This document shows, piece after piece, positions 42,308 to 52,542 of a stretch of 64,000 nt of DNA. The stretch is from Chloroflexota bacterium (GTDB taxonomy: Bacteria; Chloroflexota; Anaerolineae; B4-G1; DUEL01): assembly GCA_014874475.1 (NCBI GenBank), contig JADBJJ010000032.1:62001-126000 (forward strand), in the 5' to 3' direction. The stretch's first letter is position 1. Each line of letters starts with the position of its first letter. Position numbers and translations under genes: made by a program. The notes under the pieces are model-generated. The model had not been told where the DNA came from, did not search any database, and saw only the letters and a program-made list of their open reading frames with translations.

Positions 42308-43300
42308 ATGAAACGCTACACCCGTATTCTGAGCACGCTGCTAATCGCTCTGATGGTGGTGGGCCTGGCCGCCTGCCAACCCACCCCCACACCGGCGCCG
42401 CCAACGCCCACATCTCTCCCCCCTACGGCAACGCCGAAGCTTCTCCCTACTCCTACACCGACGCCAGCCCCGTACCCGATGACCGTCACCGATATGGCTG
42501 GGCGGGAGGTGACGATCCCGACCGAGCCGCAGCGCATTGTCTCCCTTGCTCCATCCATCACAGAGATTCTCTTTGCGCTGAACATGGGTGAACGGGTTGC
42601 GGGGGTCACCAAGTTCTGCAACTACCCGCCAGAGGCCGCAGAGAAGCCTCAGGTCGGGGGCTTCTCCGACGTCAGCATAGAGAAGTTGTTGGAGGTACAG
42701 CCGGACCTGGTCCTGGTTGCCAGCATTCATATGGCCCAGGTCCTGCCGGAACTGGAGAAACTGGGGCTCCCAGCGCTGGTCATAGACGCCCGCGATTTTC
42801 CGGGAGTCCTGGAGAGCATCCGGCTGATCGGGAAGGTCACAGGTGCGGAGAAAGCCGCCGAGGACCTGACGGCTCAGATGCAGGAGCGGGCAGACAAAGT
42901 CGCCCAGGCGGTGAAGGACCGGCCCCGGCCTCGGGTCTACTGGGAACTGGACCCTTCTCTCTGGACGGCCGGCCCGGGTTCTTTTGTCCAGGACTTGATT
43001 GAGCGGGCCGGTGGGGAGAACATCGCGGCCAATGCAGAAGCGGCCTGGGTGCAACTCTCCGCCGAGGCCATCATCGCCGCCGATCCGGAGGTCATCTTCC
43101 TGGCGGATCACCCTTACGGGGAATCGGCAGAGACTGTGAAAGCCCGCCCTGGCTGGGAGAAGATTTCCGCCGTGGTTAACGGGCGCATCGTGGAACTGAC
43201 CCAGGAGCAGGGCGATATCGTCAGCCGGGCCGGCCCCCGGGTGATAGACGCACTGGAACTGATTGCGCGGGCCCTTCATCCCGATGCATTCCAGCAATAG
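42308..43300 (+). CDS. btuF: cobalamin ABC transporter substrate-binding lipoprotein
   Basis: 330 residues. Signal peptide with lipobox GLAAC (Cys23), a Thr/Pro linker (24-57), then a helical-backbone two-domain binding protein: RIVSLAPSITEILFALNMGERVAGVTKFC, EVQPDLVLVA, the WELDPSLWTAGPGSFVQDLIERAGGEN stretch, and DPEVIFLADHPYG. These are typical of BtuF/FecB-like proteins; the riboswitch fixes the ligand as a corrinoid. AAAGGAGG precedes the ATG. Anchored outside the membrane, it delivers B12 or cobinamide to BtuCD. Confidence 0.93.
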   Translation: MKRYTRILSTLLIALMVVGLAACQPTPTPAPPTPTSLPPTATPKLLPTPTPTPAPYPMTVTDMAGREVTIPTEPQRIVSLAPSITEILFALNMGERVAGVTKFCNYPPEAAEKPQVGGFSDVSIEKLLEVQPDLVLVASIHMAQVLPELEKLGLPALVIDARDFPGVLESIRLIGKVTGAEKAAEDLTAQMQERADKVAQAVKDRPRPRVYWELDPSLWTAGPGSFVQDLIERAGGENIAANAEAAWVQLSAEAIIAADPEVIFLADHPYGESAETVKARPGWEKISAVVNGRIVELTQEQGDIVSRAGPRVIDALELIARALHPDAFQQ

Positions 43301-44360
43301 TAGCGAACCCTCTCACCCCAACCTGTTCCGCCAGAGGCGCTGGCTTTTCCTGGCCCTGGGCGTCGGACTGTTGCTGGTCACCGCGACGCTGGGATTCGCC
43401 TGGGGTGCCGTCTCCATCCCGCCCGGTGTCGCCCTCCGCATCGTCGGACACCAGTTGGGGCAAGGGTCCGGGCCGACGGACTGGCCGCCGGCCTGGGAGA
43501 CCATTCTCCTGCAAATCCGTGTCCCCCGGGTCGTGCTGGCCGGCCTGGTGGGGATCACACTGGCTGTGGCCGGGGCAGTCTACCAGGCCCTCTTCCGGAA
43601 TCCGCTGGCGGAGCCGTACCTCATCGGCGTCTCCTCCGGCGCGTCCTTCGGAGCCACGCTGGCCATCGTCCTTATCTGGCGGCTGGGCAGGAGCGGATGG
43701 AGCGGCGTCTCGCTGGCTGCGTTCGTGGGGGCTCTTCTGGCGACAGCGGCTATCTATGGACTGGCCCGCGTCGGCGGACGGACGCCCGTCACCACTCTCA
43801 TCCTGGCCGGGGTGGCCGTCAACACTCTCCTTTCGGCCGCCACCGTCTTCCTGATGTTCAGCATGCAGGACGCCTTCCAGGCTATGCACGTCCTGGGCTG
43901 GCTAATGGGCAGCCTGGCACTGGCCGACTGGGAGAAGGTACAGGTCATTCTCCCCTACATCCTGGGAGGACTGGCGGTCATCGCCTGGCACGCCCACAGT
44001 TTAAATGTGCTCCAATTGGACGAAGAGCAGGCCCAGTCGCTGGGGGTGGCGGTGGAGCGAACGAAGGGGATACTGATCGTCGCGGTTTCCCTGGCGACCG
44101 CTGCCGCCGTTTCGGTCAGCGGCACGGTCGGCTTTGTGGGACTCATCATTCCCCACATTGTCCGGCTGATCTGGGGGCCCGATCACCGATTCTTGCTCCC
44201 AATGAGCGGCATCCTGGGGGCGGTGGGGATTATCCTGGCCGATGGCGCGGCCCGTACCCTCTTCGCCCCCCGGGAATTGCCCCTGGGAGCAGTGACGGCC
44301 GTCGCAGGCGCGCCGTTCTTCCTGTACCTGTTGCGGCGGCAAAAGCGGGAAATCTTTTAG
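43284..44360 (+). CDS. btuC: cobalamin ABC transporter permease
   Basis: 358 residues from the ATG at 43284 (17-nt overlap with btuF; an earlier in-frame start is less likely). About ten membrane helices of the FecCD/BtuC family: IRVPRVVLAGLVGITLAVAGAVYQALFRNPLAEPYLIGVSSGASFGA, the LGWLMGSLA stretch, and GTVGFVGLIIPHIVRLIWGPDHRFLLP (cytoplasmic coupling loop). The order F-C-D is that of a standard uptake system. Confidence 0.93.
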   Translation: MHSSNSSEPSHPNLFRQRRWLFLALGVGLLLVTATLGFAWGAVSIPPGVALRIVGHQLGQGSGPTDWPPAWETILLQIRVPRVVLAGLVGITLAVAGAVYQALFRNPLAEPYLIGVSSGASFGATLAIVLIWRLGRSGWSGVSLAAFVGALLATAAIYGLARVGGRTPVTTLILAGVAVNTLLSAATVFLMFSMQDAFQAMHVLGWLMGSLALADWEKVQVILPYILGGLAVIAWHAHSLNVLQLDEEQAQSLGVAVERTKGILIVAVSLATAAAVSVSGTVGFVGLIIPHIVRLIWGPDHRFLLPMSGILGAVGIILADGAARTLFAPRELPLGAVTAVAGAPFFLYLLRRQKREIF

Positions 44361-44475: not shown

Positions 44476-45291
44476 ATGATGCCCCTGGAAGTAGAAAACC
44501 TGACCTTCGCCTATGACGGAAGATCCGTCCTGCGGGGAGTATCGTTCCAATTGATGCCCGGGGAGGTACTGGGGCTCATCGGGCCCAACGGGGCGGGGAA
44601 ATCCACGCTGATCCGGCTGGCGGCGGGGTTCCTCCGGCCCGACAGAGGGACGGTGCGGCTCTTCGGGCGTCCACCGGCCCACTGGCCCCCGCGCCAACTG
44701 GCCCGGTGGGTCGCGCTGGTGCCCCAGGGAGCCTACATCCCGCCGACCTTCACCGTCTGGGAGAGCGTCCTGCTGGGACGGACCCCCTATCTGGGCTTTC
44801 TGGGAGTCCCCCGGCAGCCCGACCGGGCGGCAACCCGCCGCGCGCTGGAATGGGTGGGGATAGCCGATCTCTCGGAGCGGCTGGTGGGCGAACTCTCCGG
44901 CGGGGAGCGGCAACGGGTCCTCCTGGCTCGCGCCCTGGCTCAGGAGCCCCGTTGTCTCCTTCTGGACGAGCCCACCACTCACCTGGACATCCACCACCAG
45001 GTCGCGGTCCTCTCCCTGATCCGCCGGATGGCAGTGGAATGCGGCATTGCGGTCCTCATTGTCCTGCATGACCTGAACCTGGCGGCGACCTTCGCCGACC
45101 GGCTGGTGCTGCTGGTGGACGGGATGCTGGTGGCGCTGGGCGACCCGAAGGAAGTGCTGTGTCGGGAGCGGCTGACCGCAATCTACGGGGATACCGTCGC
45201 GGTCTTTCCCCGCCCCGACGACGGAGGCCGTCCGGCGATCCTGCCCAGGATCGGCCAGGGTAATTTGCCCGCGCAGGGACGGATAACGTGA
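44476..45291 (+). CDS. btuD: cobalamin ABC transporter ATP-binding protein
   Basis: 271 residues from the ATG at 44476 with GGAGG 6 nt upstream. Walker A GPNGAGKST (36-44), Q-loop LVPQGAYIP, signature ELSGGERQRVLLARALAQ, Walker B CLLLDEPTTHLD, switch His in VLHDLNLAATFADR. FecE/BtuD type. The 115-bp gap after btuC holds a GGATGGACGCGGGCGGAC fragment of the hairpin-repeat type seen at 5523-5626. Its stop overlaps the next start as GTGA. Confidence 0.93.
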   Translation: MMPLEVENLTFAYDGRSVLRGVSFQLMPGEVLGLIGPNGAGKSTLIRLAAGFLRPDRGTVRLFGRPPAHWPPRQLARWVALVPQGAYIPPTFTVWESVLLGRTPYLGFLGVPRQPDRAATRRALEWVGIADLSERLVGELSGGERQRVLLARALAQEPRCLLLDEPTTHLDIHHQVAVLSLIRRMAVECGIAVLIVLHDLNLAATFADRLVLLVDGMLVALGDPKEVLCRERLTAIYGDTVAVFPRPDDGGRPAILPRIGQGNLPAQGRIT

Positions 45292-46226
45292 ACAGTATCC
45301 TGAAAGCACTGCGGCGCTGCCTGGAAGACGCTGCCCGGCGGAATCCAGCGGAGGTGCTCTTCTTCTCCGGGGGACTGGATACGTCCATCCTGGCCGCCCT
45401 GGCCCCTTCCATCCCAGCCATTCACGTCTGCCTGGAGGACGGGGGAGAGGACCTGCCTTACGCCGAAAGGTGGGCCCGGGAACTGGGCCTTTCCCTGACC
45501 GTCCGGAAAATCTCCGTGGAAGAAGCGCTGGACGCCCTTCCGGAGGTCATCCGCATCCGACGTACCTTTGACCCCGCACTCCCCAACGACCTGGCTCTCT
45601 ACTTTGCCTTCGCTGAAGCCCGCTATCTGGGATTTGTACAGGCGATGACCGGCGACGGCGCAGATGAGTTATTCGCCGGGTATTCGTTCATGTTTGACCT
45701 GGACCTGGCATCCTACATCCCCTGGCTGGCCGGACGGATGCGTTTCTCGGCCAGTGAGATCGGCGATTGGTTCGGGGTGAATGTCAGCCAGCCATATCTG
45801 GACCCAGCGGTGGTGGACCTGGCCCTGACGATTCCCCCTGAACTGAAAGTCCGGGAGGAGAACGGGGTCCGGATCGGGAAGTGGATCCTCCGAAAAGCCT
45901 TTGAGGGAGACCTGCCCCCCTATCTCTGCTGGCAGAGCAAACGGCCCATAGAGGTGGGGTCCGGCTTCAGCCGTCTGCGGGAAGTGGTAACGGCGATGCT
46001 GAGAGAGGAGGATTGGACCGCACCGGTCCGATTTTTCTCCTGCGACCAGCCCTACTATTATCGCCTCTACCGCCAGGTGGTCGGAGAGATCCCCCCGCCA
46101 GGGCCCGAAGAGCGAGAATGTCCGTACTGCGGGGGCGGAATGCCTCTGGATGCTCATCACTGTCGCGTGTGTGGATACTCCACCCGACCTCCTGGGGGGT
46201 CTGGACAAAAGGGGGAAACCATCTGA
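45288..46226 (+). CDS. asparagine-synthase-like PP-loop ATPase with C-terminal zinc ribbon
   Basis: 312 residues, GTG start at 45288 overlapping btuD by 4 nt. N-type PP-loop FSGGLDTSIL (SGGLDTS 27-33) and the second ATP/AMP segment MTGDGADELFAGYS (120-133) match the C-terminal (synthetase) domain of AsnB. The glutaminase domain is missing, so it would need ammonia or another donor, or only adenylates. A four-cysteine ribbon ends the protein (C278, C281, C292, C295). Embedded in the B12 operon between btuD and a DUF71 gene, it may amidate or activate a corrinoid or corrinoid precursor (inference). Confidence 0.8.
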   Translation: MNSILKALRRCLEDAARRNPAEVLFFSGGLDTSILAALAPSIPAIHVCLEDGGEDLPYAERWARELGLSLTVRKISVEEALDALPEVIRIRRTFDPALPNDLALYFAFAEARYLGFVQAMTGDGADELFAGYSFMFDLDLASYIPWLAGRMRFSASEIGDWFGVNVSQPYLDPAVVDLALTIPPELKVREENGVRIGKWILRKAFEGDLPPYLCWQSKRPIEVGSGFSRLREVVTAMLREEDWTAPVRFFSCDQPYYYRLYRQVVGEIPPPGPEERECPYCGGGMPLDAHHCRVCGYSTRPPGGSGQKGETI

Positions 46227-46227
46227 G

Positions 46228-46398
46228 ATGCCCCCAATGGCGGATTACAGGTTGGGGAAGGAGACTTCCCGCCGTATACGATGCCCACAATCTGGCCCTG
46301 GCCCGACACCTGGAGGCCAAGTTCTGGACAGCCGGCAGTGGCCCCTTCGGATGGTTCGGGACCGCATCCCTGATATTCATCTGTTGGACGCTGAATGA
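46228..46398 (+). CDS. small 56-residue ORF, possibly frameshifted
   Basis: ATG at 46228 lies 1 bp after the previous stop and its TGA overlaps the next ATG (ATGA), so the spacing is that of a real operon gene: MPPMADYRLGKETSRRI … MVRDRIPDIHLLDAE. The middle (PQSGPGPTPGG) looks unnatural, while the +1 frame there reads AVYDAHNLALARHLEAK, a better-looking helix. Two compensating frameshifts, or chance, could explain this. No family recognised. Confidence 0.4.
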   Translation: MPPMADYRLGKETSRRIRCPQSGPGPTPGGQVLDSRQWPLRMVRDRIPDIHLLDAE

Positions 46399-47063
46399 AC
46401 TTCTTCATCTCCTGGAGCGGCGGAAAAGATAGCGCTTTGGCAGCCTACCGGGTCCGGCAGGAGGGTCACCGGATATCCTGCCTGCTCAACTGTGCCGCCG
46501 AGGACGGAAGCCGCGTCCGCGCCCACGGGTTTCCCGCCGAAGTTGTCGCCCTTCAGGCCCGCGCCATGGGAATTCCCCTGGTGCAGGTATACACTTCCTG
46601 GGAGGAATACGAGGCCAATTTCAAAGAGGCGCTGTGGACGCTGAAAGATTCGGGGGTGGAGGGCGGCGTTTTCGGGGATATGGACATAGAGGAGCACCGA
46701 GAGTGGGTAGAGCGGGTCTGTGCCGAGGTGGGTATGCGGCCCATCCTGCCCCTCTGGAAGGCCGATCCCTGGGCCCTGCTGGAGGAGTTCTGGGATGCCG
46801 GTTTCCGGGCCCTGGTCGTTGCAACCCGGCTGGATCCCACCTACGTGGGGCGGACACTGGACCGGGAACTGGTCACTGAGATGGAAACGCGCGGCGCTCA
46901 CCCTTGCGGGGAGAGGGGCGAATACCACACCCTGGTCACCGACGGGCCCCTGTTTCAGCGTCCCCTGCAGGTGGAACTCCCTCCGGACGCCCCCGCCGTC
47001 TATGAGCACAACGGTATCTGGTATCTGAATTTCGCACCGCGGCTGGGGGGCAAGGTTGGTTGA
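46395..47063 (+). CDS. DUF71/COG2102 PP-loop ATPase (Dph6-like, B12-salvage subgroup)
   Basis: 222 residues. N-terminal PP-loop WSGGKDSALAAYR (S8-S13) and the C-terminal motif PCGERGEYHTLVTDGPLF ('GExGExHTxVxDGP'), both diagnostic. Archaeal and eukaryotic relatives are diphthine-ammonia ligases, but bacteria make no diphthamide. Comparative genomics has proposed a separate DUF71 branch in B12 salvage, and its place here inside a riboswitch-controlled cobalamin operon fits. It probably forms an amide bond using ATP and ammonia. Its stop overlaps the next start by 8 nt. Confidence 0.85.
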   Translation: MNFFISWSGGKDSALAAYRVRQEGHRISCLLNCAAEDGSRVRAHGFPAEVVALQARAMGIPLVQVYTSWEEYEANFKEALWTLKDSGVEGGVFGDMDIEEHREWVERVCAEVGMRPILPLWKADPWALLEEFWDAGFRALVVATRLDPTYVGRTLDRELVTEMETRGAHPCGERGEYHTLVTDGPLFQRPLQVELPPDAPAVYEHNGIWYLNFAPRLGGKVG

Positions 47064-47982
47064 AGCAGCGCTGACGCTTCTGGGAGCGGTCGCCCTGGAC
47101 ATCGTCTTTGGCGAGCCGCGGGGCCCTTTCCATCCGGTCGTCTGGATGGGCCGCTGGCTGGACGGGTGGTGGCGATGGCGGCCCCGGGAGGGCCGGGTCC
47201 GACAGTTTCTCTTCGGGGCGACCGCTGTCCTTCTGGGCGCGGCGCTGTTCAGCCTCCCCTGGTGGCTCCTCTTGCGGGCGCATCTTCCCCTCTTCTGGCT
47301 CTGGAGCATTCCGTTTTTAAAAGTGACCTTCGCCGTCCGCGCCCTGCTGCAGGCTGGGGAGGAGGTGCTGGAGGCACTGGAGCGGGGGGACCTGCCGGAG
47401 GCCCGGCGGCGGGTTCGCTGGCACCTAGTGGGGCGGGAGACGGAGGGCCTTCCGGAGCCGCTGGTCGTCTCTGCGACGGTGGAGTCACTGGCAGAGAACA
47501 TCACCGATGGGCTCACGGGTCCTCTCTTCTATTTCGCCCTGCTGGGGCTTCCCGGCGCGTGGGCCTACCGGTTCTGCAACACGGCCGACTCTATGTGGGG
47601 CCACCGCCAGCCAGAGAAGGAGTATATCGGCAAATTTGCGGCGCGGGCCGATGACGTGCTGAACTGGCTGCCCGCCCGGCTAACGGCTCTGTTCATCGTC
47701 ATCGGGGCAGCGCTGACAGGGGAAGACCCCCGCGGGGCCTGGCGCGCGATGGGGAGCCAACATCGGCGGACCGCAAGCCCCAATGCTGGCTGGACAATGT
47801 CCGCGATGGCTGGCGCGCTGGGCGTCACCCTGGAGAAAAGAGGGCACTACCGGCTGGAAGGGGGCAACGGCGCGCTGGATGCGCAGACTATCCGGCGCGC
47901 GCTTCGGGTGGTCCGCTGGACAATGGCGCTGGTCGTGGGAGCCTTTGTGCTCCTGACGGGGGTCTCGCACCGCTGGCTTTAA
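47056..47982 (+). CDS. cbiB: adenosylcobinamide-phosphate synthase
   Basis: 308 residues, TTG start at 47056 overlapping the DUF71 gene. Attaches aminopropanol phosphate to adenosylcobyric acid. Integral membrane protein with LDIVFGEPRGPFHPVVWMGRWLD, ATVESLAENITDGLTGPLFYF, and the FCNTADSMWGHRQPEKEYIGKFAARADDVLNWLPARL stretch, all typical of CbiB/CobD. The 200-bp gap that follows carries GCGGAGAACGCCGAGGGCGCGGAG repeats (about 48154-48177) and no other recognisable feature. Confidence 0.95.
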   Translation: MVEAALTLLGAVALDIVFGEPRGPFHPVVWMGRWLDGWWRWRPREGRVRQFLFGATAVLLGAALFSLPWWLLLRAHLPLFWLWSIPFLKVTFAVRALLQAGEEVLEALERGDLPEARRRVRWHLVGRETEGLPEPLVVSATVESLAENITDGLTGPLFYFALLGLPGAWAYRFCNTADSMWGHRQPEKEYIGKFAARADDVLNWLPARLTALFIVIGAALTGEDPRGAWRAMGSQHRRTASPNAGWTMSAMAGALGVTLEKRGHYRLEGGNGALDAQTIRRALRVVRWTMALVVGAFVLLTGVSHRWL

Positions 47983-48183: not shown

Positions 48184-49308
48184 ATGCCTCTACCAAGAAA
48201 CGCCATTCAGAACCTGACTTCCGATCAGCACGGAGGGATAGACTATGCCCGCCTGCGGGCCGAAGGTATCGCCCCAGATGAGATACTGGATTTCAGCGTC
48301 AACTCCAACCCTTTCGGCCCGCACCCGGCAGTCCGGGAGGCACTGGCGCGCTCGGACATCGCCCGCTATCCGGATCCGGAGGCAGGTCTGCTCCGGGAGC
48401 GGCTGGCTGCGCTCTGCGGCCTCCCCCCGGCCCAGGTCCTGGTGACCAACGGCACTGCACAAGCCATCTGGCTGGTCGCCCTGGCCTACCTGGACCCCGG
48501 TGACGCTGTCCTCATCGTCGGCCCGACGTTTGGAGAATACCGGGTAGCCTCCCAGTTGATGGCAGCAGCGGTCCATATCCTTTTCGCTCCAGAGGAACAG
48601 AGATTCTATCCGGACGTGGTGGAAATTGCCGACTGGATTTCCGTCCATCGCCCCCGCCTGGTCTGGCTCTGCAATCCCAATAACCCCACCGGGGTCTACC
48701 TGGGACGGAAGGCCATCCTCTCCATTCTGACGGCATGCCAGACGGCGGGGAGTATGTTGGTTGTGGACGAAGCATATATGAACTTCACGGACAAGCCATG
48801 GGACTCTGTCCCTCTCCTGGAAAGCGGGCATCTGCTTCTCCTGCGTTCTATGACCAAAGATTTCGCCCTGGCAGGGCTGCGGCTGGGGTATGTGCTGGGG
48901 CCCGAAGAGGGAATTCGGGCCCTGCGCCGCGTCCAGCCGCCCTGGAGCGTCAACGCGGCCGCCCAGGCAGCGGGACTGGCCGCGCTGGACCATCTGGAGG
49001 AGTATCGGGAGGCCTGGAGCGTCCTGCATAGGCTAACGGAAGACCTGAGGGCGGCGTTCACCCGTTTGGGTCAGATGGCCCTGCCCACCACGGTGAACTT
49101 CTTCCTGGTCCGAACCGGGGACGGAGACGGGACACGGGAAGCGCTGATGCGCCACCGGATTCTGGTCCGCAGTTGTCGCTCCTTTGGCCTTCCAGCCCAT
49201 ATCCGTATCGGGACCCGTCGGCCCGAGGAGAACCGGCGGCTGATGGAAGTTATGGAACGCCTTGCACAGGAAGGCTTTTCCTGGCCGTCGCCCGATGCAG
49301 CGGGCTGA
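48184..49308 (+). CDS. cobD: threonine-phosphate decarboxylase (CobD/HisC family)
   Basis: 374 residues. PLP enzyme of fold type I making aminopropanol phosphate for the lower loop. Visible: DFSVNSNPFGPHPAVREAL, NGTAQAIWLVA, WLCNPNNPTGVYL, VVDEAYMNFTD and the PLP lysine in RSMTKDFALAGLRLGY. Similar to histidinol-phosphate aminotransferase, but location between cbiB and cobT and the 'QHGGIDY' N-terminus (as 'DQHGGID') favour CobD. The start follows a GGAGGGCTGGA site. Confidence 0.9.
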   Translation: MPLPRNAIQNLTSDQHGGIDYARLRAEGIAPDEILDFSVNSNPFGPHPAVREALARSDIARYPDPEAGLLRERLAALCGLPPAQVLVTNGTAQAIWLVALAYLDPGDAVLIVGPTFGEYRVASQLMAAAVHILFAPEEQRFYPDVVEIADWISVHRPRLVWLCNPNNPTGVYLGRKAILSILTACQTAGSMLVVDEAYMNFTDKPWDSVPLLESGHLLLLRSMTKDFALAGLRLGYVLGPEEGIRALRRVQPPWSVNAAAQAAGLAALDHLEEYREAWSVLHRLTEDLRAAFTRLGQMALPTTVNFFLVRTGDGDGTREALMRHRILVRSCRSFGLPAHIRIGTRRPEENRRLMEVMERLAQEGFSWPSPDAAG

Positions 49309-49393: not shown

Positions 49394-50455
49394 ATGACAT
49401 CGTTACAGGAGACTATGGCTCGCATTGGGCCACTCTCCGCCTCTGCGATGGAGGCCGCCAGAACCCGTCAGGACCAGTTGACCAAACCCCAGGGAAGCCT
49501 GGGGCGACTGGAGGACCTCTCGGTCCAGGTCGCCGGGATCACCGGGAACCCCCGGCCCGTCATTGCGCGCAAAGCGGTCATCGTCGTGGCGGGGGACCAC
49601 GGGGTCGCGGCGGAAGGGGTGAGCGCGTACCCCCAGGAGGTCACCGCCCAGATGGTCTACAACTTCCTGCGGGGCGGGGCCGCCATCAACGTCTTGGCCC
49701 GCCACGTCGGCGCGCGGGTCGTGGTGGTGGATGCAGGCGTCGCCGCAGACCTGGAGCCCCACCCCGCGCTGAAAATCCGCAAAATCGGTTACGGGACAGG
49801 CAACATTGCCCGCGGCCCCGCAATGACCCGGGAGCAAGCCATCCAGGCCCTGGAGGCTGGCATCGCGCTGTTGGAAGAGGAACTGGCCCAGGGACTGGAC
49901 ATCGTCGCGCCGGGGGATATGGGGATCGCCAACACCACCCCAGCGGCGGCCATCGCGGCGGCCGTCACGGGCCTCTCCCCGGCTGAGGTGACCGGTCGGG
50001 GCACCGGAGTGGACGACGAAGGGCTGGCCCGCAAAGTCGCCGTCGTGGAGCGATCGTTGCGGGTCAACAAGCCCGATCCGGAAGACGGCATAGACCTGCT
50101 GACGAAGGTCGGCGGGTTTGAGATTGGCGTTATCGCGGGGATCATCCTGGGCGCGGCGGCCCACCGCATCCCCGTCGTCCTGGACGGCTTTATCTGCACG
50201 GCTGGCGCGCTGGTCGCCGCGGCCATCGCTCCCGCCCTGACGGCGTACTGCATCGCCGGTCACAACTCCGTGGAGCGGGGCCACCGGGCCATGCTGGACC
50301 ATCTGGGGCTCAGACCGCTCCTGGACCTGAATATGCGCCTGGGAGAGGGAACCGGCGCGGTGCTGGCGATGGGCCTGGTGGAAGCCGCCTGCAAAATTCT
50401 GAACGAAATGGCAACCTTCGCCGAAGCGGGGGTCTCTGAAAAGAAAGAGCAGTAG
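49394..50455 (+). CDS. cobT: nicotinate-nucleotide:dimethylbenzimidazole phosphoribosyltransferase
   Basis: 353 residues, the expected length. Activates the lower-ligand base. Contains QDQLTKPQGSLGRLEDLSVQVAG, VVAGDHGVAAEGVSAYPQEVT, APGDMGIANTTPAAAI, GRGTGVDD and the C-terminal MRLGEGTGAVLAM with the catalytic Glu. CCGGAGGT precedes the ATG. Next is cobS after 31 bp. Confidence 0.95.
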   Translation: MTSLQETMARIGPLSASAMEAARTRQDQLTKPQGSLGRLEDLSVQVAGITGNPRPVIARKAVIVVAGDHGVAAEGVSAYPQEVTAQMVYNFLRGGAAINVLARHVGARVVVVDAGVAADLEPHPALKIRKIGYGTGNIARGPAMTREQAIQALEAGIALLEEELAQGLDIVAPGDMGIANTTPAAAIAAAVTGLSPAEVTGRGTGVDDEGLARKVAVVERSLRVNKPDPEDGIDLLTKVGGFEIGVIAGIILGAAAHRIPVVLDGFICTAGALVAAAIAPALTAYCIAGHNSVERGHRAMLDHLGLRPLLDLNMRLGEGTGAVLAMGLVEAACKILNEMATFAEAGVSEKKEQ

Positions 50456-50486: not shown

Positions 50487-51221
50487 ATGTTTCGTCCTTT
50501 TCTCGTCGCGCTGTACTTTCTGACCCGCCTGCCGCTGCCGCCGAAGGAGATTTCGCTGGAGGAGGTCGGGCGGTCGGCGTGGGCGTTCCCCGCCGTGGGA
50601 GTGCTGATCGGCCTCATACTGGCAGGGTCGGACTGGCTCCTCGGCTGGCTGTTCCCGCCGGTCCTGCGGGCCGCGCTCGCCCTGGCCCTGTGGGTGGCCC
50701 TGACCGGAGCGCTGCATCTGGACGGTTTCGTGGACTGCTGCGATGCCCTGCTGGCCGCCCGTCCCCCTGAGGTCCGGCTGGAGATTCTGCGGGATACCCA
50801 CGTGGGCGCGTTCGGGGTCGTCGGGGCCATTGTACTATTGCTGGTCAAATCCGTCGCGCTCTCCACCTGCCTCTCTGCCGGAACGTGGCCTGCGCTGATC
50901 CTGGCGCCCGCGCTGGGGCGATGGGCGATGGTCTACGCGATGGCCCACTACCCCACCGCCCGGGCCACTGGTATGGGGAAGGCGGTGCAGGAGTTCATCG
51001 GCCGGCGAACCCTGCTGGGGGCCACGCTGCTGGCGCTGCTTCCCCTTCCGACGCAGCCGCTGGCGGGCCTGATCGCTTTCGCACTGGCCTGGCTGTTCAC
51101 CGTTCTCTTCGCCCGCTGGGTCCTGCGGCGCATCCCCGGTTTCACGGGCGACGTCTACGGCGCCCTTTGCGAGTCCACAGAGGTCGTTATCTTGCTGACC
51201 CTGGCAGCGGGGAGAGGATGA
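50487..51221 (+). CDS. cobS: adenosylcobinamide-GDP ribazoletransferase (cobalamin synthase)
   Basis: 244 residues with about six membrane helices. Joins activated lower ligand to AdoCbi-GDP. Motifs: ALYFLTRLPLPPKEI, LHLDGFVDCCDALLAARPPEVRLEILRDTHVGAFG (Asp-rich substrate site) and GRWAMVYAM. The stop overlaps the cbiR start as ATGA. Confidence 0.95.
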   Translation: MFRPFLVALYFLTRLPLPPKEISLEEVGRSAWAFPAVGVLIGLILAGSDWLLGWLFPPVLRAALALALWVALTGALHLDGFVDCCDALLAARPPEVRLEILRDTHVGAFGVVGAIVLLLVKSVALSTCLSAGTWPALILAPALGRWAMVYAMAHYPTARATGMGKAVQEFIGRRTLLGATLLALLPLPTQPLAGLIAFALAWLFTVLFARWVLRRIPGFTGDVYGALCESTEVVILLTLAAGRG

Positions 51222-51991
51222 GGTTCCGCCTGGGCACCACTTCCTATATCTACCCGGCAGACTTTCTCTTGAACGTCCAGCGGCTGGCCGGGCTGGTGGA
51301 GGACATGGAACTGGTCCTCTTTGAGGTAGAGGGGGCCAGCAACCTTCCCGACCAACAAACCGTCGCTGGTCTGAGGGAGGCTGCCCGCTGTTACGGGATC
51401 AGTTACACCGTCCACCTGCCCACTGACCTGCGCCTGGGAGCCGAGGGGGAAATCTGGGCGTTCTCGGTGGAGAAGGCCCGGCGGTTCATCCAGACCACCC
51501 GTCCCCTGAACCCCTGGGCCTACATTGTTCATCTCAACCCGGACGGGGCTGGAACCCTGGCCCGCTGGCAGGAGCGATGTCTGGAAGCGCTGATGACGCT
51601 GGCCCGAGAGGTCGGAGAACCAGACCGCCTGGCCGTGGAGAACCTGGAGAACTGTCCCCTGGAACGTCTCATCCCCCTTCTGGCACAAATGCCCATCAGC
51701 CTCTGTATGGATGTAGGACATCTCTGGCTGGCCGGTGCGGACCCGCTCCCTGCGCTGGAAGCCCATCTGGGACAAACGCGGGCCGTTCACCTGCACGGGG
51801 TGAACCGCTGGGACCACGAATCTCTGTTATGGGTTCCAGTGGATGCGCTTCGCGCTGTTCTGAAAGCACTGACCTGTCAGGGATACGAGGGTGTGGTCAC
51901 TTTAGAAGTTTTCTCGGCAGAGGATTTTTTCTCTTCCCGGGAGCGGGTATTCTCTCTACTGGAGGAATTGGAACGTTGGGAGCCAAATTGA
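51218..51991 (+). CDS. cbiR: cobamide-remodelling phosphodiesterase CbiR
   Basis: 257 residues, TIM-barrel of the AP endonuclease 2/sugar-phosphate isomerase fold. The N-terminus RLGTTSYIYPADFLLNVQRLAGLVEDMELVLFEVEG, then YTVHLPTDL, VENLENCPL, SLCMDVGHLWLAG and AVHLHGV carries the metal-binding His/Glu/Asp residues. CbiR, first characterised in Akkermansia, removes the lower ligand from imported cobamides so CobT/CobS can attach the preferred one. Position between cobS and cobU strongly supports this reading. Overlaps cobS and cobU by 4 nt each. Confidence 0.88.
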   Translation: MRFRLGTTSYIYPADFLLNVQRLAGLVEDMELVLFEVEGASNLPDQQTVAGLREAARCYGISYTVHLPTDLRLGAEGEIWAFSVEKARRFIQTTRPLNPWAYIVHLNPDGAGTLARWQERCLEALMTLAREVGEPDRLAVENLENCPLERLIPLLAQMPISLCMDVGHLWLAGADPLPALEAHLGQTRAVHLHGVNRWDHESLLWVPVDALRAVLKALTCQGYEGVVTLEVFSAEDFFSSRERVFSLLEELERWEPN

Positions 51992-52542
51992 CCCTGATTT
52001 TGGGCGGCGTCCGGAGCGGGAAGAGCGACTACGCCCAGCGACTGGCGACAGAATCGGGCCGGCCCGTCATCTACATCGCGACGGCGACGGCCGGGGACGA
52101 GGAAATGGTCCAGCGGATCGCCCGTCACCGGGCTGCCCGCCCGGCCCACTGGCGCACGCTGGAGGTGCCGGTGAATGTCGGACAGGCACTGAAGGCCGTC
52201 ATCGCCGGGGGCGAAGTCGCGCTGATGGACTGCCTGACCCTGCTGGTCTCCAACTGGATGATGGAAGAAGGCGAAGGAGTGACGGAAGACCTGCTGGAGG
52301 CGCGAGTCACAGGTGAACTGGAAGCCCTGCTGGGGGTCTGCGCGGCCGGGGAGGTCGCCCTGATCGTCGTTTCCAACGAGGTGGGGATGGGACTGGTCCC
52401 CCCGTACCCGATGGGACGGGTCTATCGGGATGTCCTGGGGCGGGCCAATCAGTGGCTGGCCGCCCGGGCCGACCGGGTGATCCTGATGGTAGCAGGCATT
52501 CCGTTGAACCTGAAGGGAAGTTCGGAGCCAGTCGCCGGGTGA
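51988..52542 (+). CDS. cobU: adenosylcobinamide kinase/guanylyltransferase
   Basis: 184 residues from the TTG at 51988 (TTGA overlap with cbiR; GGGAG 5 nt upstream); a TTG at 51976 is the alternative. P-loop GGVRSGKSDYAQ, then DEEMVQRIARHRAARPAHWRTLEVP with the guanylyl-accepting His region, LMDCLTLLVSNWM, and VSNEVGMGLVPPYPMGRVYRDVLGRANQWLA. Size matches CobU. Last gene of the operon; no terminator is evident before the facing GT-C gene 16 bp on. Confidence 0.93.
   Translation: MTLILGGVRSGKSDYAQRLATESGRPVIYIATATAGDEEMVQRIARHRAARPAHWRTLEVPVNVGQALKAVIAGGEVALMDCLTLLVSNWMMEEGEGVTEDLLEARVTGELEALLGVCAAGEVALIVVSNEVGMGLVPPYPMGRVYRDVLGRANQWLAARADRVILMVAGIPLNLKGSSEPVAG

Follow-up and report, generated by a model that had tools for sequence, protein, structure and literature searches.

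A stand-alone AsnB-type synthetase paired with DUF71 in a cobalamin salvage operon of a Chloroflexota bacterium and its possible place at the cobyric acid node

Two different ATP-pyrophosphatases stand between the uptake genes and the assembly genes of a cobalamin (B12) operon in a Chloroflexota bacterium, which raises the question of what such a pair contributes to the handling of corrinoids. The window, that is the whole stretch of DNA analysed here, covers 64,000 nucleotides (contig JADBJJ010000032.1, positions 62,001 to 126,000) of a 3.0 Mb genome (G000) that has Thermoflexus and further Anaerolineae among its close relatives. One of the two genes (45288-46226, plus strand) encodes an AsnB-type synthetase domain, for which we coin the name AsnL; the other (46395-47063, plus strand) encodes a DUF71 protein of the type DUF71-B12, an unsolved B12 protein since 2012. 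In operons of relatives we find CbiP and CbiZ where the window has AsnL and DUF71. We tentatively favour the view, to which we give somewhat less than an even chance, that AsnL replaces CbiP in salvage by amidating corrinoid side chains as an ammonia-dependent ligase, with DUF71-B12 in the slot of CbiZ.

AsnL and its DUF71 partner

AsnL has 312 residues, begins at the synthetase domain (PF00733, 3.8e-38) and ends in the motif CPYC...CRVC with cysteines C278, C281, C292 and C295. A family search of the window protein found no N-terminal class II glutaminase domain; the model of glutamine-hydrolysing asparagine synthetase, TIGR01536, was matched with 95 bits at a cut-off of 267, and TIGR00313 (CbiP/CobQ) was not among the families matched. 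The initial annotation of this DNA, made from the sequence alone, had described a glutaminase-less AsnB relative with a four-cysteine ribbon, and this description holds. Nine close orthologues were aligned, and a scan of GTDB species genomes yielded at least 321 relatives, from which 80 loci were kept. Among 64 aligned full-length homologues all four cysteines are invariant, together with the glycine that follows the fourth, as are S27, G29, D31, T121, G122, D123, D126 and E127; SGGxD, TGDxxDE and the lysine of WxxK are retained in all or nearly all of them. The predicted structure (mean pLDDT 95.3) matches human asparagine synthetase with a Z score of 27.8 and 2.4 Å over 269 residues, beta-lactam synthetase with 25.5 and E. 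coli AsnB with 25.3. Judged by this model, the fold is that of the AsnB/beta-lactam synthetase domain along the whole length of AsnL, with the four-cysteine ribbon hardly covered by the structure matches. In a tree, all AsnL proteins are split from three AsnB outgroup domains by a long branch with full support, and AsnL forms a coherent family. Its main clade (n = 51, support 99/91) carries an FDPALPND-type motif at the position of TTIRAS in AsnB. The TTIRAS arginine is gone in the window protein (FDPALPND) and kept in deep archaeal branches as FDPMEVRNS. Loss of this substrate arginine was considered as a marker of the B12 clade and rejected, since L103, L108 and L110 keep the arginine yet adjoin DUF71.

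The DUF71 protein of the window (222 residues; PF01902, 1.6e-49) has the motif ERGEYHT, with a histidine where Dph6 has a glutamate (E188 of EGGE/DxE). According to the 2012 study by de Crécy-Lagard et al. (PMC3541065), a histidine in ENGEF/YH instead of the Dph6 glutamate is the hallmark of DUF71-B12; by its motif the window protein is of this type and not of the Dph6 type. The same histidine is present in all 39 DUF71 partners from AsnL loci in which the motif is readable. A role of DUF71 in B12 salvage has been predicted before, and the operon context of DUF71-B12 is known from that study (PMC3541065). Archaeal loci L136-L144 encode AsnB-DUF71 fusion proteins of about 680-750 residues with the motif EGGEFES. 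As support for the AsnL/DUF71 pairing we rejected these archaeal fusions: the ones checked carry this Dph6-type motif, which points to diphthamide and not to B12, and the proteins of L136-L144 probably belong to diphthamide synthesis.

The pair recurs well beyond the window. The DUF71 gene directly follows asnL on the same strand in 35 of the 80 loci (GTDB species), and the commonest neighbours of AsnL are btuFCD, cobU, cobT, cobS, cbiB, cobD and btuB-like and btuR-like homologues. In 21 of 26 scanned AsnL loci a cobalamin riboswitch scored above the curated threshold, nearly always upstream and on the same strand; the remaining five gave no match, and four of them covered less than 1.6 kb upstream. 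Bacterial carriers of AsnL are found in the Chloroflexota, Nitrospirota, Omnitrophota, Thermodesulfobacteriota, Aerophobota, Latescibacterota, Auribacterota, Lithacetigenota, Actinomycetota and Pseudomonadota, and further carriers in several archaeal groups; the AsnL/DUF71 pair occurs in at least ten phyla. Co-occurrence outside this genome and with cobalamin riboswitches, both raised by the initial annotation, is what we observe, for the most part in B12 salvage operons and for the most part under such riboswitches. In a survey of about 200 genomes of the class, DUF71 was present in all nine AsnL genomes and in 16 of the remainder (Fisher 1.8e-9, uncorrected for kinship). In one Latescibacterota locus (L042) asnL lies between cobD and btuF in an operon without DUF71, and that genome gave neither a DUF71 nor a CbiZ match.

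Exchange with CbiP and CbiZ in related operons

CbiP and CbiZ both supply cobyric acid, the substrate of CbiB. A riboswitch-headed operon from the same order as the window (L120, genome G027) reads btuF-btuC-btuD-cbiB-cobD-cbiP-duf71-cobT-cobS-cobU, so that DUF71 adjoins CbiP. Elsewhere in the class L156-L159 share the core cbiZ-cbiB-cobD-cbiP, preceded in L156 and L158 by btuFCD-btuR-cobT-(cobS), and L134, L135 and L163 show cbiB-cobD-cbiP behind btu genes. The class survey counted 43 genomes with CbiP and nine with AsnL, and none of them has both. CbiP and AsnL are each found combined with CbiZ as well as with DUF71, which makes four pairings; that of AsnL with CbiZ is seen in G246 and also in ANME-1 genomes without a CbiP match (e.g. 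G205, G230, G237 and G241). This swap pattern suggests two slots, one for CbiP or AsnL and one for CbiZ or DUF71-B12, and two separate roles for AsnL and DUF71. DUF71-B12 and CbiZ were reported to be mutually exclusive in bacteria, from which DUF71-B12 was assigned the role of CbiZ (PMC3541065). The same logic applied to AsnL would give it the role of CbiP, and the chemistry class proposed for AsnL, carboxylate to amide, matches that of CbiP.

Full-length CbiP was matched in three of 65 AsnL genomes, all of them archaeal, and the corrin-ring gene CbiC in ten of the 65, every one archaeal judged by its locus; neither was found in the bacterial AsnL genomes searched. CbiZ was also not found in these bacterial genomes, with the sole exception of G246 (Omnitrophota; L094:2945-3849), in which the AsnL frame is broken or frameshifted, DUF71 is absent and CbiZ lies within the operon. 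The window genome gave no match to CbiA, CbiP, CbiZ (PF01955) or CbiC apart from a partial CbiP (TIGR00313) match of 3e-4. Since metagenome-assembled genomes are incomplete, single gene absences mean little and the pattern across many genomes weighs more. CbiA matches in sulfate reducers and methane-oxidising archaea were left out as evidence of B12 synthesis, because DsrN and CfbB fall in the same family.

We tentatively place AsnL in the job of CbiP because of its fold, its kept catalytic motifs, the operon swap with all four pairings, and the absence of CbiP, CbiC and, apart from G246, CbiZ from the bacterial carriers searched. AsnL would bind MgATP and convert a corrinoid side-chain carboxylate to an acyl-adenylate, which free ammonia would attack to yield the carboxamide, AMP and pyrophosphate. 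Incompletely amidated corrinoids entering via BtuFCD would in this way be turned into cobyric acid and passed on to CbiB and CobD, whose genes follow in the operon, while DUF71-B12 would fill the second cobyric-acid-feeding slot, held by CbiZ in relatives. Genes, families, operon, riboswitch, recurrence and the swap with CbiP and CbiZ are direct observations; substrate, ammonia donor, reaction and division of labour are deduced here from gene content and fold. A bolder version, about which we are more doubtful, would make AsnL a second, non-homologous cobyric acid synthase of bacteria and archaea that uses ammonia and an acyl-adenylate and forms, together with DUF71-B12, an alternative to the CbiP/CbiZ pair at the cobyric acid node.

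Several points weigh against a replacement of CbiP by AsnL. Genomes capable only of salvage would be expected to lack CbiP in any case. The missing overlap between nine AsnL and 43 CbiP genomes is not significant on its own (Fisher p = 0.21), and seven of these nine AsnL genomes belong to one genus. CbiP makes four amides, all of which one small ligase would need to cover, and a CbiP-like role hinges on how much incompletely amidated corrinoid the carriers meet. AsnL and full-length CbiP occur together in three ANME/Methanomicrobia genomes, and AsnL is present in 10 of 15 archaea around Nitrosotalea with full CbiP, which limits the mutual exclusion to bacteria.

The initial annotation had suggested that both enzymes re-amidate hydrolysed corrinoids. 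AsnL and DUF71 would then act jointly on chemically hydrolysed side chains, each at positions of its own, and would repair damage rather than replace CbiP. Both families are known to form amides from carboxylate and ammonia with conversion of ATP to AMP, and the asnL and duf71 genes are often coupled. However, L120 retains DUF71 beside a full CbiP, DUF71 swaps with CbiZ, which is not an amidating enzyme, and the change from glutamate to histidine in DUF71-B12 suggests an altered reaction (PMC3541065). Amidation by AsnL agrees with its fold, its catalytic residues and the operon place of CbiP, whereas the same job for both proteins is not supported, the swap pattern pointing to separate roles; joint repair appears unlikely to us.

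A rather improbable alternative is a single machine of AsnL and DUF71 that cleaves the amide bond to aminopropanol in cobamides or cobinamide after import, as an ATP-driven analogue of CbiZ that provides cobyric acid for CbiB. The mutual exclusion of DUF71-B12 and CbiZ reported for bacteria (PMC3541065) holds in the searched AsnL bacteria with one exception. The pair is also accompanied by cbiB and cobD, which are sensible only with cobyric acid. On the other hand, AsnB-type domains form amides, and we know of no precedent in the AsnB fold for amide cleavage with conversion of ATP to AMP. Moreover, L120 has DUF71 without AsnL, some archaea have AsnL without an adjoining DUF71-B12, and CbiR in the window already offers a remodelling route.

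Under the preferred assignment of AsnL to the place of CbiP, a conserved partner of clear chemistry class narrows, via the swap analysis, the reactions of AsnL and DUF71 to the cobyric acid node and thereby renders them testable with available corrinoids. If this assignment is true, many bacteria that are classed, for want of CbiP, as non-users of incompletely amidated corrinoids can use them after all, and predictions of who supplies whom with B12 change.

The operon in the window and AsnL in archaea

The operon of the window lies on the plus strand in the order riboswitch-btuF-btuC-btuD-asnL-duf71-cbiB-cobD-cobT-cobS-cbiR-cobU, and asnL and duf71 belong to this one riboswitch-controlled B12 salvage operon. 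At its head stands a cobalamin riboswitch aptamer (RF00174, 41886-42089; cmscan 50.1 bits, gathering 31.5), followed by genes for a btuF-like corrinoid-binding lipoprotein (42308-43300; PF01497, 2.6e-43; NCBIfam BtuF, 2.5e-28, under the model cut-off), a btuC-like permease (43284-44360, open frame from 43263; PF01032, 9.3e-92) and a btuD-like ATPase (44476-45291, open frame from 44386; PF00005, 7.3e-34). Downstream of duf71 lie cbiB for adenosylcobinamide-phosphate synthase (47056-47982; PF03186, 9.2e-88; TIGR00380 above cut-off), cobD for threonine-phosphate decarboxylase (48184-49308; top match TIGR01140, 8.8e-81, slightly below cut-off), cobT (49394-50455; TIGR03160 above cut-off) and cobS (50487-51221; TIGR00317 above cut-off). 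They are followed by cbiR (51221-51991; NF041277, 244.5 bits at a cut-off of 105) for a cobamide-remodelling phosphodiesterase that is already known (PMC7733943), and by a cobU-like kinase/guanylyltransferase gene (51988-52542) with the P-loop GGVRSGKS in frame and homologues in relatives' operons of the same kind. The GTG start of asnL overlaps the stop of btuD and the start of cbiB lies within the end of duf71, a pattern as in translationally coupled operons. The pair had been described as sitting side by side between uptake and assembly genes; its place in the operon is as described, but asnL and duf71 are 168 bases apart. This gap results from a decayed toxin-antitoxin insertion: the Phd/PIN remnant at 46227-46394 (plus strand) reads like the C-terminal end of a PIN protein in L003, L007 and L008. 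The Phd/PIN pair in the gap reads intact in L003 and L007 and is broken in L008, and in L004, L005 and L006 asnL and duf71 touch or overlap.

Among archaeal loci, L103 and L173 have the order btuFCD-asnL-duf71-cobT-cobS-cobY. A Thermoprotei archaeon (L096:8359-9942) encodes a CobY-AsnL fusion of 528 residues, CobY being adenosylcobinamide-phosphate guanylyltransferase, and in L095 the AsnL gene overlaps that of a CbiA-type side-chain amidase. AsnL of ANME-1 has cbiB and ThiC in its neighbourhood, along with a small cysteine-rich protein and one of the UPF0280 type. The fusion, the overlap and the closeness to cbiB count in favour of the preferred reading of AsnL as a corrinoid amide ligase. 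Fusion and cbiB closeness would also be compatible with an AsnL that couples some other amine in place of ammonia, such as the aminopropanol linker or a modified form of it, to a corrinoid carboxylate beside or instead of CbiB. The AsnL model matches beta-lactam and carbapenam synthetases, which use amines other than ammonia and whose fold accepts them. CbiB and CobD in the same operons would, however, be redundant with such an activity, and we consider it quite improbable. In L063, L067, L070, L074, L077 and L090 (ANME-1 and related archaea) a ThiC homologue and a UPF0280-type protein cluster with AsnL and a small cysteine-rich protein (PF04071), often also with cbiB; the ThiC homologue may be either thiamine ThiC or a lower-ligand enzyme. 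L075, a contig labelled Nitrosotalea, shows an ANME-1 type neighbourhood of AsnL, ThiC and UPF0280 and is probably misbinned.

Ammonia-oxidising archaea carry AsnL in nearly every genome, no B12 gene was seen adjoining it there, and its function in these organisms may differ. This distribution would agree with AsnL being an ordinary ammonia-dependent asparagine synthetase or another non-B12 enzyme with an incidental operon place, or with a family of split function that serves B12 in part only. The fact that phyla unrelated to each other repeatedly link AsnL with riboswitches and B12 genes and the replacement of AsnB TTIRAS, with its arginine, by FDPALPND in the window clade speak against these options, which we regard as very improbable. 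In about 100 genomes of ammonia-oxidising archaea (L115-L118), CbiP consists of the ATPase half only (about 280 residues, without the glutaminase domain) and sits in a cobD-cbiP-cbiB-cobS operon. The idea that AsnL compensates for this half-length CbiP was dropped as proof, since AsnL also occurs together with full-length CbiP in 10 of 15 archaea around Nitrosotalea.

Comparison with known systems

A search of the open literature, with subscription journals outside its reach, retrieved no text that describes the AsnL family, the pair it forms with DUF71-B12 or the swap with CbiP. In the portion of the 2012 DUF71 paper considered here (PMC3541065), the only roles given to asparagine synthetase are those of a fusion domain or a source of ammonia, and an AsnL partner is not described; with the DUF71-B12 subfamily defined there, the window protein shares the histidine motif, the btuFCD and cbiB neighbours and a genome without CbiZ. 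AsnL resembles AsnB/ASNS and the beta-lactam and carbapenam synthetases in fold (Z 22-28), PP-loop, second ATP motif and catalytic lysine. Unlike these enzymes, it has no glutaminase domain, carries an extra invariant four-cysteine ribbon, resides in B12 operons and, in the clade of the window, has an altered aspartate-site motif. The archaeal AsnB-DUF71 fusions combine the same two catalytic domains as the pair, but those checked show the Dph6-type EGGEFES. AsnL shares with CbiP/CobQ its operon position and the reaction proposed for it, but the two are not homologous, CbiP being a BioD-type ATPase with GATase_3 and AsnL a PP-loop ATPase without glutaminase. Likewise, CbiZ, the adenosylcobinamide amidohydrolase, holds in relatives the slot of the window DUF71-B12, although the two sequences are unrelated and CbiZ uses no ATP.
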